Source: Calorimonas adulescens (lineage in GTDB: Bacteria; Bacillota; Thermoanaerobacteria; Thermoanaerobacterales; UBA4877). Taken from it: a stretch of 45,432 nucleotides of DNA. The notes beneath the pieces are model-generated. The model was not told where the DNA came from. It saw only the letters and a list, made by a program, of their open reading frames with translations, and searched no databases. This document shows, one piece after another, positions 10,563-21,640 of the stretch. Position 1 is the stretch's first letter, and each line of letters opens with the position of its first letter. The stretch covers positions 1 to 45,432 of the forward strand of contig NZ_VTPS01000022.1 in assembly GCF_008274215.1 (NCBI RefSeq), given 5' to 3'. Position numbers and translations under genes: made by a program.

Positions 10563-12461
10563 ATGGAGGCTATTGGTAGGGTACCTCCACACAGCATTGA
10601 GGCTGAGGTCTCTGTACTGGGTGCCATGATGCTGGACAAGGAGGCTGTGGTGGAAGCCTCCGAAATCATTACCAGGGACGACTTTTACAGGGACTCACAC
10701 AAGATATTGTTTGACGTTATGATGGAACTCTTTGAAAAAGGGGAGCCTGTAGACCTGGTTACAGTGATAGATGCCCTGAGGAGTAAAAACCTCTTGGAGG
10801 TGGTTGGCGGGCAGGACTATGTGTCTGAGCTTCCTATGGGTGTGGTAAGCACTACCACAGTGCCTTACTATGCAAAGATGATAAAGGACAAGGCCACACT
10901 CAGGAGGCTTATAGAGGCATCTGGCAGGGTTGTAGAACTGGGGTTTAACGGCGGCAGTGTGGACGAGGTGCTGGATGAGGCTGAAAGGTCTATATTCATG
11001 ATATCGGAGAGCAGGACGACATCCGGTTTTCTCTCGGTAAGGGATATACTGCCGGAGTCACTGGAGATGATTGACAGACTTCAGAAGAACAAGGGAAGCA
11101 TAAGCGGCGTGCCTTCTGGATATTCTGACCTGGATAACAAGACCTCCGGTTTTCAACCGTCTGACCTGGTGTTAATTGCGGCCAGGCCGTCCATGGGCAA
11201 GACTGCCTTTGCCTTGAATATTGCCCATAATGCTGCAATAAGGCATAAGAAGTCTGTGGCCATATTCAGCCTTGAGATGTCAAAGGAACAGCTTACTAAC
11301 AGGTTGATATGTTCCGAGGCTACCATAGACAGCCAGAAGCTGAGGATGGGTATGCTGGATGATGAGGACTGGCCAAAGCTGACCAGGGCGGTGGGGGTGC
11401 TCTCTCAGGCGCCCATATACATTGACGATACGCCCAACATTACCATTTCGGAAATGAGGGGTAAGCTCAGGAGGCTGAAGATGGAAAAAGGCCTCGATAT
11501 GGTGATTATAGACTACCTGCAGCTTATGCAGTCGGAAAAGAAGGCGGAAAGCAGGCAACAGGAGATATCAAACCTCACCAGGGCTTTAAAGGGCCTGGCC
11601 AGAGAGCTCAATGTCCCTATAATCACTCTTTCGCAGCTTTCCAGGGCTCCTGAGGCTCGTTCGGACCACAGGCCGATGCTGAGCGATCTGAGGGAGTGTG
11701 TAACGGGGGATACATTGGTTATGCTTGCTGATGGTACACGTGTTCCTGTAAAAGATTTAGTTGGTGCAAAGCCTGAGGTATTTTCGGTTGATCAGAGAGG
11801 CAGGATTATAAAGGCCAGAAGTGATATGGTATGGTACGTAGGAAAGCGCCCCGTTTTTGATGTTATACTTGCCAGTGGACGTCATATACGCGCTACCAGT
11901 AAGCACCATCTGCTCAGCGGTTCGGGATGGAAGCAGGTGTCTGAGCTGACTGTAGGAGACCGCATAGCATGTGCACGAAGGATACCGGAACCTCAAAATA
12001 CGGAGAGTTGGTCAGAATATCGGGTTGCGCTATTGGGACAACTCATAGGTGACGGGTCATCACACTACCGGTTTGCTCCATCGCGTGAATTGGTTGCTCA
12101 ATATGCGGAAATATTGAATGATGAACTGTTGAGAGATGCTGCAACAAATGATTTGTTCTGGGACCGGATAATTCAAATTTTACCTTGCGGCGAAGAGGAT
12201 GTATATGATCTGACAGTACCGGCTACTTCTTCATGGCTGGCTGACGGGATTGTAAGTCATAATTCAGGGGCCATTGAGCAGGACGCCGATGTGGTCATGT
12301 TTCTCTACAGAGAAGACTATTATGAACCGGAGACAGACAGGAAGAATATTACAGAGGTGATTATAGCGAAGCAGAGGAACGGTCCTACAGGCACTATAGA
12401 GCTTTACTGGCTGCCTCAGTATACCAGGTTTGTCGGCCTGGAGAAGGCGAGACAGGAGTGA
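10563..12461 (+). CDS. dnaB: Replicative DNA helicase DnaB with an intein
   Basis: A 632-codon gene. Removing a 189-residue intein leaves a 443-residue helicase, normal for DnaB. The N-terminal domain (about 1-105) is followed by the RecA-like motor: Walker A ARPSMGKTAFALN near residue 206-218, IFSLEMSKEQL, Walker B MVIIDYLQLM, and LSQLSRAPEAR. The intein interrupts the conserved SDLRE/SGAIEQDADVVMF segment, and the extein then continues to the normal end. DnaB forms the hexameric fork helicase, here probably loaded by the DnaI and DnaD proteins at 26.9-28.8 kb. The start follows GGGGGGAGG. The intein must splice out for function. Confidence 0.96.
   Translation: MEAIGRVPPHSIEAEVSVLGAMMLDKEAVVEASEIITRDDFYRDSHKILFDVMMELFEKGEPVDLVTVIDALRSKNLLEVVGGQDYVSELPMGVVSTTTVPYYAKMIKDKATLRRLIEASGRVVELGFNGGSVDEVLDEAERSIFMISESRTTSGFLSVRDILPESLEMIDRLQKNKGSISGVPSGYSDLDNKTSGFQPSDLVLIAARPSMGKTAFALNIAHNAAIRHKKSVAIFSLEMSKEQLTNRLICSEATIDSQKLRMGMLDDEDWPKLTRAVGVLSQAPIYIDDTPNITISEMRGKLRRLKMEKGLDMVIIDYLQLMQSEKKAESRQQEISNLTRALKGLARELNVPIITLSQLSRAPEARSDHRPMLSDLRECVTGDTLVMLADGTRVPVKDLVGAKPEVFSVDQRGRIIKARSDMVWYVGKRPVFDVILASGRHIRATSKHHLLSGSGWKQVSELTVGDRIACARRIPEPQNTESWSEYRVALLGQLIGDGSSHYRFAPSRELVAQYAEILNDELLRDAATNDLFWDRIIQILPCGEEDVYDLTVPATSSWLADGIVSHNSGAIEQDADVVMFLYREDYYEPETDRKNITEVIIAKQRNGPTGTIELYWLPQYTRFVGLEKARQE
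11697..12263 (+). mobile_element. Mini-intein in DnaB with a relic LAGLIDADG motif
   Basis: The element is 189 codons long, from Cys1 to Asn189, and lies between RE and SG of the helicase. Splicing motifs are complete: block A CVTGDTLV (C1), block B GRHIRATSKHHLL (T67, H70), block F DVYDLTVPATSSWLADG, block G IVSHN (H188, N189), and Ser as the +1 extein residue. Only a fragment of the homing endonuclease remains: ALLGQLIGDGSSH (112-123) resembles the first dodecapeptide, and only about 35 residues separate it from the block F region, where an intact LAGLIDADG domain would need well over 150. Arginine codons are mainly CGN, unlike the AGG/AGA host extein, suggesting acquisition from another lineage. 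Confidence 0.93.
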
Positions 12462-12466
12462 TGTAG

Positions 12467-13144
12467 ATGGTGGAAACAGCTATCATAAGAAAGATACCAG
12501 TATTTTCGATGCTAAACGAGGAGACGCTGGAGCAGATAGCATCAATTGTCGCAGAGAGGCTGTATAAAAAGAATATGATAATATTCTTCGAGGGTGAGCC
12601 TGGGGAGGCCGTCTATTTTGTGATTAAGGGTAAGGTGAAGATATATAAGACCAATGCTGACGGCAAGGAGCAGATAATCCACATAATGCAGAGCGGGGAT
12701 GTGTTTGCGGAGTCTGTGTTATTTACCGGCCTGGCCTATCCCGCCAGCGCCGAAGTCATAGAGGACTCCACCATAGGTGTACTGCGCTGCGATGACCTGG
12801 AAAACCTCATAAAAAAGAACGGCAACCTGGCGGTGGCGATAATCAATTTCATGGGAAGGAGACTTCAGTTTGTCAGCGGACAGATAAAAAATCTCGGCCT
12901 CAGGGATGCCATGGGCCGTGTGGTGGATGTGATCATAAACATGGCAGAGAGGGGCAGGGAGACACCGTCAGGGATAAGGGTAGAGTTCAGGATTCCCCGT
13001 CAGGAGTTTGCCAGCATGGCAGGTACTACCAGGGAGACTGCCACCAGGGCCTTGAGTGCACTGCAGAGGGAAGGCTCAATTTTACTGGATAAGGATATAC
13101 TATATATTAAGGACATGGAAAAATTAAAAAGGTGGTTGGATTAG
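12467..13144 (+). CDS. Crp/Fnr family transcriptional regulator
   Basis: A 225-residue regulator. The cyclic-nucleotide-binding-like beta roll covers about residues 8-125 (FFEGEPGEAVYFVIKGKVKI, GDVFAE), then a dimerisation helix, then a winged helix (about 165-225) with the recognition helix in RQEFASMAGTTRETATRALS. The four-cysteine iron-sulfur site of Fnr is absent, so oxygen sensing through a cluster is unlikely and the ligand is unknown. It follows dnaB by five bases and may be cotranscribed with it; it precedes a ferritin-like gene, a possible target. Confidence 0.92.
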   Translation: MVETAIIRKIPVFSMLNEETLEQIASIVAERLYKKNMIIFFEGEPGEAVYFVIKGKVKIYKTNADGKEQIIHIMQSGDVFAESVLFTGLAYPASAEVIEDSTIGVLRCDDLENLIKKNGNLAVAIINFMGRRLQFVSGQIKNLGLRDAMGRVVDVIINMAERGRETPSGIRVEFRIPRQEFASMAGTTRETATRALSALQREGSILLDKDILYIKDMEKLKRWLD

Positions 13145-13156
13145 TATCATTTTTAT

Positions 13157-13187
13157 CCCTTCCGAATAAATTATTATTAAGGAAGGG
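13157..13187 (+). promoter_or_regulatory. Hairpin with the Shine-Dalgarno in its 3' arm
   Basis: CCCTTCC (13157-13163) pairs with GGAAGGG (13181-13187) across a 17-base AT-rich loop. The 3' arm is the ribosome binding site of the ferritin-like gene. It could act as a weak terminator after the Crp/Fnr gene or as a translational switch. Confidence 0.45.
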
Positions 13188-13197
13188 GGTTTTATGT

Positions 13198-13710
13198 ATG
13201 GAGCAGTCGGAAATCAATAATATGTTTCTCAAGTGCGCTGCCAGGCTTCCATATCCTGCTGTAAGGGTGGAAAAGCCTAACTACAACTACGGGCTTATAT
13301 TGCTGGATGACCTCGCCTCGGCTGTAAGTGAGACCACTGCTATAATGCAGTACTTAAACCATCACTATACCATTGAAGACAGGAAAATAAGCGAACTGGA
13401 AGAGTGCATAGCCATGGTTGAGATGCACCACATGGAAATACTCAATGAGCTCATTAAAAAGCTTGGTGTGACACCTGTCTATGCCAGCTATGCCGGGAAC
13501 ACTGGGATATATTGGAATGCCTCATTCGTCTATTATGGATGCGGCGTAAGGGATAAGCTTCAAAAGGATATAGATGGTGAAAGGGCAGCTATAGCTCAGT
13601 ACAAGAAGCATATAGGATTAATAGATGATAAATATGTACAGGAAAACCTGGAAAGAATTATAAAGGATGAGGAGCACCACATAGAAATTCTTACAGGGGC
13701 CTTGAATTAG
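13198..13710 (+). CDS. Ferritin-like di-metal protein
   Basis: A 170-residue, mostly helical protein with the ferritin/rubrerythrin ligand pattern: E45 (SETTAIMQY), E75-x2-H78 (VEMHHMEIL), E128 (GERAAIAQY) and E158-x2-H161 (DEEHHIEIL). This would form a di-iron or di-manganese centre used for peroxide reduction or metal handling. No rubredoxin domain is present. The ATG at 13198 is chosen because GGAAGGGGG lies 10 bases upstream; the frame extends further but without a good site. Its closeness to the Crp/Fnr gene suggests a redox or oxidative stress role, which is inference. Confidence 0.85.
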   Translation: MEQSEINNMFLKCAARLPYPAVRVEKPNYNYGLILLDDLASAVSETTAIMQYLNHHYTIEDRKISELEECIAMVEMHHMEILNELIKKLGVTPVYASYAGNTGIYWNASFVYYGCGVRDKLQKDIDGERAAIAQYKKHIGLIDDKYVQENLERIIKDEEHHIEILTGALN

Positions 13711-14543: not shown

Positions 14544-14651
14544 TCATCAATGGACGTTATTTCCATTGCTAATTAATTTTATATTATGGTCACAGTCCTT
14601 ATGGCAAATTTGCCGAAACTGGTATAAAATAGTGATAGGGGTGATTATAAG

Positions 14652-16460
14652 ATGAAGGGTTCTGTAGTATCCACATGGATTAATACTATGAAAAATCTTT
14701 TTGGCAATGAGATTGTGACAAAGACTATGCATGAACAGGGGTGGGACACAGATAAAATAATAGGGCCACTCGATGACATTGATGACGGTGCTACCAGCAA
14801 CCTGATTGCAGGGGTGGCAAAGAAGGTAGGAAAGACCCCTGAGGATCTATGGAGAGAAATAGGTAGGAACAACATAAGGACATTTCACAAGTGGTTTCCT
14901 TCTTACTTTGAAAGGAAAAGCCTCAAGGGCTTTTTGATGTTGATGGATGATGTTCACAGTCAGCTTACCAGGCTTGTAAAGGGGGCCAGACCTCCCCGCT
15001 TGTTTGCTAAGGAATTGGGTCATGACAGGATTGAGATCAGGTATGTCTCAAAAAGAGGGATGTATGACTATTTTCTTGGGCTTTTAGAGGGTGCAGCGGA
15101 GTTTTTTAATGAAAAACTGGACATAAAAGAGGTGGACAGGGGCACAGACCCTGACGGGAACAAATACATGGTTGTGGATATAAAGTTTTCTAAGATGGTA
15201 AACCAGAGGAAGAACTTTGCCATAAACAGGCTGCTCACCTTGGGTGTGTTTAAGAGTATACCTTTAAGGGCAGGGATTTATTCCGGTGTCATTACCTTGC
15301 TGACCGGCCTTTTCCTGGGTCTTCAGCTTACACAGTACATAGTGCTCGGCTGCATAGCTTTTGTAATTCCTTTTGTTGTCGTATTAATCTCCAACCAGCC
15401 GCTAAGCCTTTTAAAGAGTGAGCTGAAAAAAATCGAGAATCTTAACCTTGAGGAAGATACCACTGTGGTCACAGGGGACATATATGAAAAAATATTTGAT
15501 GACCTGAAAAATGCTAAGGAGAACTTGAGGAAAGAGATTGTCTTTATGCGTGGCGGCACAGATGACATGTATAACTTTGCTGATAACTTCTCCCGGGTGG
15601 CAGACGACATGAGGAGGGTCTCAGAGGAAATATCCAAAGCTGTGGAAGACGTGGCGCAAGGGGCAGTCTCCCAGGCGGAAGATACCAGCAAGGCTGTGGA
15701 CCTGCTGGATGAGAATATAACAAGCCTCAAGGATGTGACAAATAGACAACAGTCCAGCAAGGAGAGACTCGACAGTTCCATGAGTGATATAAACACCGCC
15801 TCTGACGATGTGGTAGGTGTGAATACTATGCTTGGCCAGATAAAAGACCGTTTTTCAGATATAAACCGTGAATCAGAAGAACTGGCGCGCAGGGCTCTGG
15901 ATATCATGGAGATAGTAAACACAGTGGAGTCCATAGCAGACCAGACGAACCTGCTGTCCCTCAACGCTGCCATAGAAGCTGCCAGGGCAGGAGAGGCAGG
16001 AAGGGGATTTGCTGTAGTGGCTGACGAGATAAGAAAACTGGCGGAGGACTCAAAAACAGCGGTGGGCACTATAAACCAAAACCTGGATGAGTTTGCTGGA
16101 AACGTAAGAAAAATGGCATCAGAGTTTGAGGAAGAGTTTAAGAGTATGGAGGAGAGCACCAGGATTCTGGACAGGGTATCAGGAAGCGTCAAAAAATCAG
16201 TTTCTGAAGTAAAAAGGGTGACCGATGAAATATCTGCCCTGACCGATGAACTTTCTAAAACCACCGAGAGGCTCTCCATGGTATTTGAAAACGTCCAATC
16301 TCTGGCAGCCATAGCAGAGGAAAACTCTGCCACCTCAGAGGAGATGAGTGCCAGCGTTACCGAATATTCATCCAAGATTGCAGAGCTTACCCAAAACATC
16401 GATGAACTCAAAAGCTTTGCAGAGTACTTTAAGGCTGAGCTGAAAAAATACCAGATGTAG
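14652..16460 (+). CDS. H-NOX-domain methyl-accepting chemotaxis protein (predicted O2/NO sensor)
   Basis: A 602-residue receptor with an N-terminal cytoplasmic H-NOX (HNOB) heme domain (1-182), two closely spaced transmembrane helices (about 207-224 and 228-247, with almost no external loop), and a C-terminal signalling domain with the conserved hairpin [20 protein letters not shown] near residue 434. Heme-site residues align without gaps to the H-NOX of Caldanaerobacter tengcongensis: H102 (proximal ligand, in DDVHSQL), Y131/S133/R135 (YVSKR) and P115. The distal pocket W9, N74 and Y140 is also kept, and in that protein Y140 stabilises bound O2. It probably steers aero- or NO-taxis. No clear HAMP domain is seen. 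RBS is GGGGTG. Confidence 0.96.
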
Positions 16461-19643: not shown

Positions 19644-19692
19644 AGATATAAATTGAGGGGAGTGCATCATGCACTCCCCTCAATTTATATCT
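19644..19692. terminator. Perfect 23-bp palindrome, terminator of the SLH-protein gene
   Basis: Two 23-base arms (19644-19666 and 19670-19692) match perfectly around a TCA loop. The inner GC-rich stem is GAGGGGAGTGCA/TGCACTCCCCTC, and it is followed in both directions by AATTTATAT. The right arm includes the last codons and stop of the SLH-protein gene. Confidence 0.8.
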
Positions 19693-21640
19693 CTACAAAT
19701 ACAAACTCTACAGGCAGGTAAGTGGACGCCGGGGGTATCCACCTGATGGTCATCTCTTCCCCTGCGGCTATCTCATCAATATACACACCCTGTGTAAATG
19801 GCCTTATAGGGTTCTTGGGGGCCATGAACCTGCCGCTCTTGCTTGTCCATATGGGGCCCTGATAGCTTCCTCCCTGCGCCAGAAGCACAATCCTCATGTT
19901 TCTCTCAGCCTTTACATGTATCTCGTACTCCAGCCCGTAATTTCCATTTAACTTTGCATCTTTATGCAGCATCTCGTCTTTTCCAGTAAGTGTAGGGTCC
20001 AGCGTACCATCAGCCAGGATAAGGGCCTGCATCCTATCCACATTTATATTAATAATCCTTTTTGTGCCGGTAAAGGTGCCCCTGTCATGGATATCGGGCT
20101 CGAGGCATGGCAGATCGTCTATCTTTTCCTCCGGGTCATTTATACCGCTGTACTTTTCTCCAAGTGCCACAAAATATACCTCCACTTCACCATCGGTTTC
20201 TATATCATATACCCCGTGGATGAGATTGTTGTATGTTACGGGCGTGTAGTAGTGGGTGGGTGAGAGGAGCTTGACCTCGCCCGGTTTTAAATTTATGGAT
20301 ACATTCAGGTTTTCGCTGTCTAAAAGCCCGTATGTAACCTCTGCGCCTATCTGGAGCCATCTCCATGACTCGTATCCCATCTCTGTGCCTCCAAGGTTGG
20401 CCCTTTTTATCCTGACGGTTACATCATCCTTACCAGTATTTTTTACAAAGACACCATACCTCAAGTTGTCAGGGAAGACCTCATTGTATAAAATCTGGTT
20501 GACGCAGTAATAATATAGCCTTGCTTTTCCATTCACCGAGGCTTTGTACTGTATTCCAGGTTCCTTTATGTACTCGGGTGAGTCAGAAAATATAAGGGTA
20601 TCCTGGTTGTCAATGGGGTTTACCTTAAGCTGGGGTATGCGGTTACCCACAAGACCTGTGGTGTCTATGACGTCACCTGGCCTGGCGTTTAATATCTGCA
20701 TCTTTATATTCTGACTGTAGCCGAATGCCTCTTCGTAGGACTTCTCTCTGTCGTTCATGGAGGGTATATACACTGTAGGACTTTCTCCCGAATACATATT
20801 GTTTGCATCAACAGCCTTCACAAAGTATTGGGGGCCGGCGTCGATATCGGGCGTCTCATCTACATATACGGTTTCTGCAGTGAAATTCAATAACTCCTCT
20901 TTGCCGTCTACAACCCGGTAAACAGCGTATTTTTTGGCACCGGGTGACGGAGTCCATTTTAAACTGACCCTGTTTGCGTCTATGCCTGTAATATACAGGT
21001 TTTCTGGCGGGGTTGGGCCGTTTTCAGGGTGATAAAACCGATAAAACAGGGTAGCGGCCTCGGCCCGTGTGAGGGTGTCCTGTGGACGAAAGCTGCCGTC
21101 TGGGTATCCGCCAGCAATCCCCAGCGCCTTGGCTGCATTGATAAAACCTCTTGCCCAAGGAGATATCTTTTTATCGTCAGTGTATCCTGTATTTTTATCG
21201 TTACCATCCTGCACCAGGGCTGATGCTGATGTGGTGGCTACGATAGCTGTTATGGCTTGCTCGCGGGTCAAAGGCTTATCTGGACCAAAGGTATATTCAG
21301 TCAAGCCGGTCATATAACCGGCTGCTACCACAGAATCTATGCCTGACTTTCCCCAGTAGTCAGCAGGGACGTCCCTAAAGGATGCAGGTTTTTCCGGGAT
21401 ATCAAGCCTGTAGACCCTGGCCATGATGTTGGCAAACTCTCCTCTTGTCACCTTGTCGTCGGGGCCAAACATTCCGTTTCCGCGTCCCCCCAGTATGCCC
21501 CTGTTGGTAAGGTCTGTAATGGCCTCTCTGGCCCATGAATTTTCAATGTCGGTGTATGGATATGAATTCTGGGCAAAGGCAAGAGCTGTGTTTGAAAAGA
21601 CTAATAGTATGGCTATAGCTATAATAAATTTTCTTTTCAT
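19685..21640 (-). CDS. S-layer homology domain surface protein with FN3-like domain
   Basis: A 651-residue exported protein. The signal peptide (about 1-23) ends ALAFAQ. Three SLH repeats follow (about 26-205; YTDIENSWAREAITDLTNRGI, FRDVPADYWGKSGIDSV, KKISPWARGFINAAKALGI, with TRGEFANIMAR, TREQAITAIV and TRAEAATLFYRF). They anchor the protein to pyruvylated wall polymer. A fibronectin-III-like domain covers about 211-295 (NRVSLKWTPSPGAKKYAVYR). The remaining 350 residues are beta-rich and not recognised. Upstream lies a tandem WalR/PhoB-type box at a fixed distance from a TATAAT, so the gene is probably controlled by the regulator at 30934. Confidence 0.9.
   Translation of the reverse strand: MKRKFIIAIAILLVFSNTALAFAQNSYPYTDIENSWAREAITDLTNRGILGGRGNGMFGPDDKVTRGEFANIMARVYRLDIPEKPASFRDVPADYWGKSGIDSVVAAGYMTGLTEYTFGPDKPLTREQAITAIVATTSASALVQDGNDKNTGYTDDKKISPWARGFINAAKALGIAGGYPDGSFRPQDTLTRAEAATLFYRFYHPENGPTPPENLYITGIDANRVSLKWTPSPGAKKYAVYRVVDGKEELLNFTAETVYVDETPDIDAGPQYFVKAVDANNMYSGESPTVYIPSMNDREKSYEEAFGYSQNIKMQILNARPGDVIDTTGLVGNRIPQLKVNPIDNQDTLIFSDSPEYIKEPGIQYKASVNGKARLYYYCVNQILYNEVFPDNLRYGVFVKNTGKDDVTVRIKRANLGGTEMGYESWRWLQIGAEVTYGLLDSENLNVSINLKPGEVKLLSPTHYYTPVTYNNLIHGVYDIETDGEVEVYFVALGEKYSGINDPEEKIDDLPCLEPDIHDRGTFTGTKRIININVDRMQALILADGTLDPTLTGKDEMLHKDAKLNGNYGLEYEIHVKAERNMRIVLLAQGGSYQGPIWTSKSGRFMAPKNPIRPFTQGVYIDEIAAGEEMTIRWIPPASTYLPVEFVFVEI

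Follow-up and report, generated by a model that had tools for sequence, protein, structure and literature searches.

A membrane chemoreceptor of Calorimonas adulescens with a haem-based H-NOX sensor that very probably binds O2 besides NO

Described H-NOX chemoreceptors and the layout of the new receptor

The H-NOX domain of Tar4 (Cs, Ct or Tt H-NOX-MCP) from Caldanaerobacter subterraneus subsp. tengcongensis is known from crystal structures (PDB 1U55, 1XBN). In this sensor O2 accepts a hydrogen bond from Y140, which is backed by W9 and N74, and the bound ligand raises the distortion of the haem (PMC9814294). H-NOX proteins of strict anaerobes are generally described as membrane-bound, fused to a methyl-accepting chemotaxis protein (MCP), binding O2 via a distal Tyr and probably serving O2 chemotaxis (PMC8738867, PMC12329717); the physiological role has not yet been demonstrated even for the type protein (PMC9814294). 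The H-NOX of Clostridium botulinum (Cb SONO) is also fused to an MCP, carries the distal Tyr and binds O2 (PMC7356049, PMC9814294). The targets of NO-specific stand-alone H-NOX proteins, in turn, are histidine kinases or c-di-GMP enzymes (PMC12329717).

The window analyzed here, a stretch of 45,432 nucleotides from Calorimonas adulescens, carries an ORF with an ATG start that encodes a receptor of 602 aa, in which an H-NOX domain is followed by a transmembrane hairpin and then by an MCP signalling domain (Table 1). Pfam HNOB was matched at 143 bits (cut-off 25.5) and MCPsignal at 116 bits, while hydropathy places two hydrophobic segments at residues ~206-223 and ~228-246 with only a few residues between them, in agreement with the earlier note, which had described a cytoplasmic H-NOX joined to two membrane helices with almost no loop. 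All full-length relatives share the hairpin and a length of 596-608 aa, as well as a conserved motif ahead of the hairpin resembling L-S-x-G-[FI]-[IFL]-[KR]-S. After the hairpin, P250, D276 and G301 are invariant in the family alignment, the first two as in HAMP domains. Judged by sequence, this connector looks HAMP-like; Pfam HAMP was not among the families listed for the receptor or for 19 family members at E up to 1.

Aer-type aerotaxis receptors have a similar layout, with a cytoplasmic sensor, a membrane hairpin devoid of an external domain and an MCP domain, and a PDB chain named 'Aerotaxis receptor' matched residues 197-558 of our protein. Aer, however, senses redox via an FAD-PAS domain, whereas the receptor has a haem H-NOX, i.e. 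a different sensor family.

Upstream of the receptor gene, no consensus match to a sigma-D type promoter was found in the window, and the sigma-70-like sites considered were weak and unconvincing. A conserved gene neighbourhood was also rejected: the gene shares its context with G001, the nearest relative, and otherwise contexts are common only within small clades. Elsewhere in the window, a dnaB helicase gene at 10563-12461 (+) contains a mini-intein inserted in frame (residues 386-567, Pfam Intein_splicing); L074, from the nearest relative, has a syntenic dnaB of 443 aa without this insert. The gene at 19685-21640 (-) encodes three S-layer homology repeats followed by an uncharacterised C-terminal part.

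Table 1. Coordinates of the receptor gene and its features in the window
Feature	Position	Strand	Basis
H-NOX methyl-accepting chemotaxis receptor (whole ORF)	14652..16460	+	ORF and Pfam
Probable ribosome-binding site AGGGGTGA, ~6 nt upstream of ATG	14637..14644	+	read from sequence
N-terminal H-NOX domain with spacer, residues 1-190	14652..15221	+	Pfam HNOB 2-159; PDB; AlphaFold; Foldseek
W9 codon, distal hydrogen-bond triad	14676..14678	+	alignment and family invariance
N74 codon, distal hydrogen-bond triad	14871..14873	+	alignment and family invariance
H102 codon, proximal haem ligand	14955..14957	+	alignment and family invariance
P115 codon, haem-distorting proline	14994..14996	+	alignment and family invariance
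Y131-x-S133-x-R135 codons, haem propionate motif	15042..15056	+	alignment and family invariance
Y140 codon, distal O2 hydrogen-bond donor	15069..15071	+	alignment and family invariance
Transmembrane hairpin, residues ~206-246, few-residue loop	15267..15389	+	hydropathy; kept across H-NOX-MCP family
Post-membrane connector, residues 250-303, invariant P250/D276/G301, HAMP-like look	15399..15560	+	family alignment
MCP signalling hairpin, Pfam match residues 402-537, tip ~424-465	15855..16262	+	Pfam and family comparison

Haem pocket, fold and distribution in the phylum

A phmmer search of the PDB retrieved the C. tengcongensis H-NOX (1xbn/1u4h) with an E-value of ~2e-63 and an alignment that stays gapless until residue ~163, with 51% identity over residues 1-163. 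The collinear numbering proposed in the earlier note is therefore exact over this range, and W9, N74, F78, H102, P115, Y131, S133, R135, Y140 and L144 can be read directly under the same numbers in both proteins. The distal triad, the proximal His, Pro115 and the YxSxR motif are thus identical to those of Tar4, while the receptor differs by Val for Ile at position 5 and by Phe118/Glu121 for Ile/Pro. AlphaFold2 was used to model residues 1-190 from an alignment of 33 sequences (pLDDT 90.7), and the model best matched the Cs/Tt H-NOX structures (18 chains, TM ~0.9), with TM 0.90-0.92 and an rmsd of 1.9 A for 6cww. Nostoc and Shewanella H-NOX structures gave TM ~0.8 (~0.82 for the NO-specific Nostoc protein). 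Since the alignment is gapless and the model superposes on crystal structures at TM 0.9, we conclude that W9, N74, Y140, H102, P115 and Y131/S133/R135 are true equivalents of the C. tengcongensis residues. The assignment of the sensor as H-NOX is consequently backed by Pfam, the PDB match, the residues and the fold alike, and Y140, W9 and N74 lie where they had been predicted to lie.

The distribution of the domain was surveyed by searching for PF07700 in 40 relatives and 398 genomes sampled from the phylum. Each of the 35 intact H-NOX proteins fused to an MCP, the receptor included, carries W9, N74, Y140, F78, H102, P115, Y131, S133 and R135, and this invariance across the whole H-NOX-MCP family indicates that the residue match with C. 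tengcongensis is not due to chance. Position 5 is Val in most members, as in the receptor. Two of the genomes encode an H-NOX 97% identical to that of Cs, within homologues that match the receptor in length (602 aa), hairpin and MCP layout; over the full length, identity between the Cs-like protein and the receptor is ~43% or less. Stand-alone NO-specific H-NOX proteins (Shewanella, Vibrio, Nostoc and nine loci of the phylum) share the fold and the proximal His with the receptor but, unlike it, have neither the MCP fusion nor the triad. At the nine loci, Leu, Ile or Phe is found at position 9, Trp or Phe at 74 and Ile, Leu or Phe at 140; in L037 a stop close to the N-terminus makes position 9 unreadable, and the membership of L067 is doubtful. 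The triad thus sorts perfectly with MCP fusion, a rule also given in reviews (PMC8738867, PMC12329717), and the receptor, with a Tyr in its distal pocket, falls outside the NO-specific stand-alone class. The distal Tyr/Trp/Asn highlighted in the earlier note is therefore not unusual: the triad is what defines an already known subfamily, and the receptor is a further member of the already described O2-binding H-NOX-MCP family.

Comparison with the homologue of G001 yielded dN values of 0.11 and 0.06 for the two halves of the H-NOX domain and 0.05 for the signalling tip, the highest value (0.23) being that of the membrane/linker part; dS was saturated. The low dN in both halves shows that the sensor is under strong constraint. 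Frameshifts or stops break the H-NOX-MCP copies in four genomes (G001, G018, G036 and G227; broken loci L002:4000-5805, which is that of G001, L018, L014 and L066). In G001, whose assembly is metagenomic, one T is missing from a homopolymer run, and this break may be an assembly error.

Probable ligand and proposed route to the flagella

The C. adulescens genome (2.6 Mb, 98.7% complete) encodes a single H-NOX, that of the receptor, and eight MCP genes. Profile searches detected one CheA and two CheW; a premature TAG suspected in CheA was dismissed, the gene being an intact ORF of 660 aa. As named from their translations, CheB, CheC, CheD and FliA adjoin CheA, and CheY lies with an extended stretch of flagellar genes. 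CheR and two flagellins are also present, while cytochrome bd was sought in this genome and found to be absent. The coupling to the flagellar system of an anaerobe-like organism, as anticipated in the earlier note, is therefore well matched by the gene content. The signalling tip of the receptor matches the tips of two other MCPs of the genome, so that a shared array with the sole CheA is the simplest reading. In the window, two genes upstream of the receptor (12467-13710, +), a Crp/Fnr-family regulator precedes a ferritin-like protein that weakly resembles Mn-catalase/rubrerythrin, an arrangement conserved in L074 and possibly an oxidative-stress pair.

Taken as a whole, the protein is a membrane chemoreceptor whose haem sensor very probably binds O2 besides NO. 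An O2-binding H-NOX chemoreceptor signalling via CheA to the flagella is the best explanation, with a probability of about 0.8, of the observed sequence, fold, residue equivalence, family-wide invariance and complete chemotaxis set. From these we infer haem loading, the O2 complex, signalling and the direction of the response as follows. The cytoplasmic N-terminal domain would hold a b-type haem on H102, with W9 and N74 holding Y140 and Y140 hydrogen-bonding O2. The ferrous domain would form a stable 6-coordinate O2 complex and could also bind NO and CO. Ligand binding would change the haem distortion and rotate the subdomains, and the signal would then pass through the transmembrane hairpin and the HAMP-like connector to the MCP hairpin, and from there via the single CheA to the flagella. 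Attraction and flight cannot be told apart from the sequence; O2 avoidance by a strict anaerobe would be the most plausible purpose.

The strength of O2 binding is a separate matter. According to PMC7356049 (citing Wu 2015), the KD(O2) is 44 nM (4.4e-8 M) for Cs and 53 uM (5.3e-5 M) for C. botulinum, a ~1000-fold weaker binding by a protein with the same closest distal residues, which belongs to the same domain class as our receptor. It follows that O2 affinity cannot be inferred from the distal triad and that the receptor could bind O2 weakly. The earlier note had argued for O2 from the C. tengcongensis relative; with the triad shared, O2 binding is likely, but its affinity cannot be transferred from that protein. 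The same comparison lends some weight to the possibility that the receptor in practice senses NO, with O2 weakly bound, or the oxy form oxidising fast, and NO held far tighter. The first description of the C. botulinum homologue was, going by its title (Nioche 2004, cited in PMC9814294), that of a femtomolar NO sensor, and NO-type stand-alone H-NOX proteins occur in the same phylum. We nevertheless regard this as rather unlikely, given that the triad, needless for an NO-only role, is retained in all 35 intact MCP-fused proteins and missing from the stand-alone ones, and that the Cs H-NOX was reported, again according to a title (Hespen 2016, cited in PMC8738867), to signal selectively with O2.

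Haem supply in carrier genomes

The search for haem routes covered ferrochelatase, HemE and NirJ2/AhbD. Ferrochelatase (PF00762) was detected in none of the 31 genomes carrying the receptor, including C. adulescens, as opposed to 8 of 14 control genomes, and HemE (TIGR01464) reached the cut-off in no carrier but in six controls. Twelve of the 31 carriers have a gene scoring 316-381 bits with AhbD (TIGR04545), under the model cut-off of 500, each accompanied by a second gene at 206-268 bits. The G116 pair and the AhbC-type gene of G042 scored highest with NirJ2 (493.6 bits) and NirJ1 (549 and 691 bits), and in both genomes AhbA and AhbB, above cut-off, adjoin the NirJ-type genes. The NirJ/Ahb operon starts 0.25 kb from the receptor gene in G116 and 4.6 kb from it in G257, of the same family; in G042, AhbC/A/B lie 3.5 kb away, while the AhbD-type gene is on another contig. 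AhbA/AhbB and NirJ1/NirJ2-type genes were located beside H-NOX-MCP genes elsewhere in the phylum, at L086:9623-11740 (NirJ1/AhbC type only), L087:8005-11679 and L088:14792-18177. Two independent adjacencies among 12 genomes of ~2.5 Mb each are more than random placement would give, although they were noticed after the fact.

The NirJ2/AhbD pair is missing from the other 19 of the 31 carriers, including C. adulescens and the two genomes with a 97% identical Cs-like H-NOX. A radical-SAM match in C. adulescens was ruled out as AhbD, being an ACGX-system enzyme (622 bits); this radical SAM/SPASM protein (L082:7965-8999, contig C10) belongs to a putative peptide-modifying system. In a tree of 19 receptors, the haem-route label falls in a few clusters and not in one clade. 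Going by profile-search absence, the known routes searched would thus leave 19 carriers without haem while the pocket is intact, its haem-contacting residues being invariant in the family alignment despite the missing routes. Native haem loading in C. adulescens is therefore not assured, since its genome lacks ferrochelatase, HemE and NirJ/AhbD-type genes.

We tentatively suggest, as a possibility that we hold to be doubtful, that most carriers run the receptor on scavenged haem, or on another tetrapyrrole from the sirohaem/cobalamin branch, and that elsewhere the adjacent sirohaem-to-haem operon supplies the haem. It is also conceivable, and in our opinion quite improbable, that the organism makes no haem, so that the receptor is largely apo in its native host and works only with scavenged haem, or is on its way out. 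The absence of all three routes from C. adulescens and 18 other carriers and the four broken copies would fit such a state, but the invariant haem contacts and the low dN of the H-NOX domain argue against it, and the frameshift of G001 may, as mentioned, be an error. Should the scavenging proposal be true, O2 taxis in such carriers would be conditional on haem from neighbours.

To our knowledge, the biochemistry on H-NOX sensors relies on protein produced in E. coli, a host that supplies the haem. We thus believe that the haem-supply gap matters more than one added case of the family, and that a simple, testable question is which cofactor these sensors carry natively when the genome has no recognised haem synthesis. 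Finally, the invariance of the triad means that the source of the 1000-fold spread in O2 affinity should be looked for outside it.
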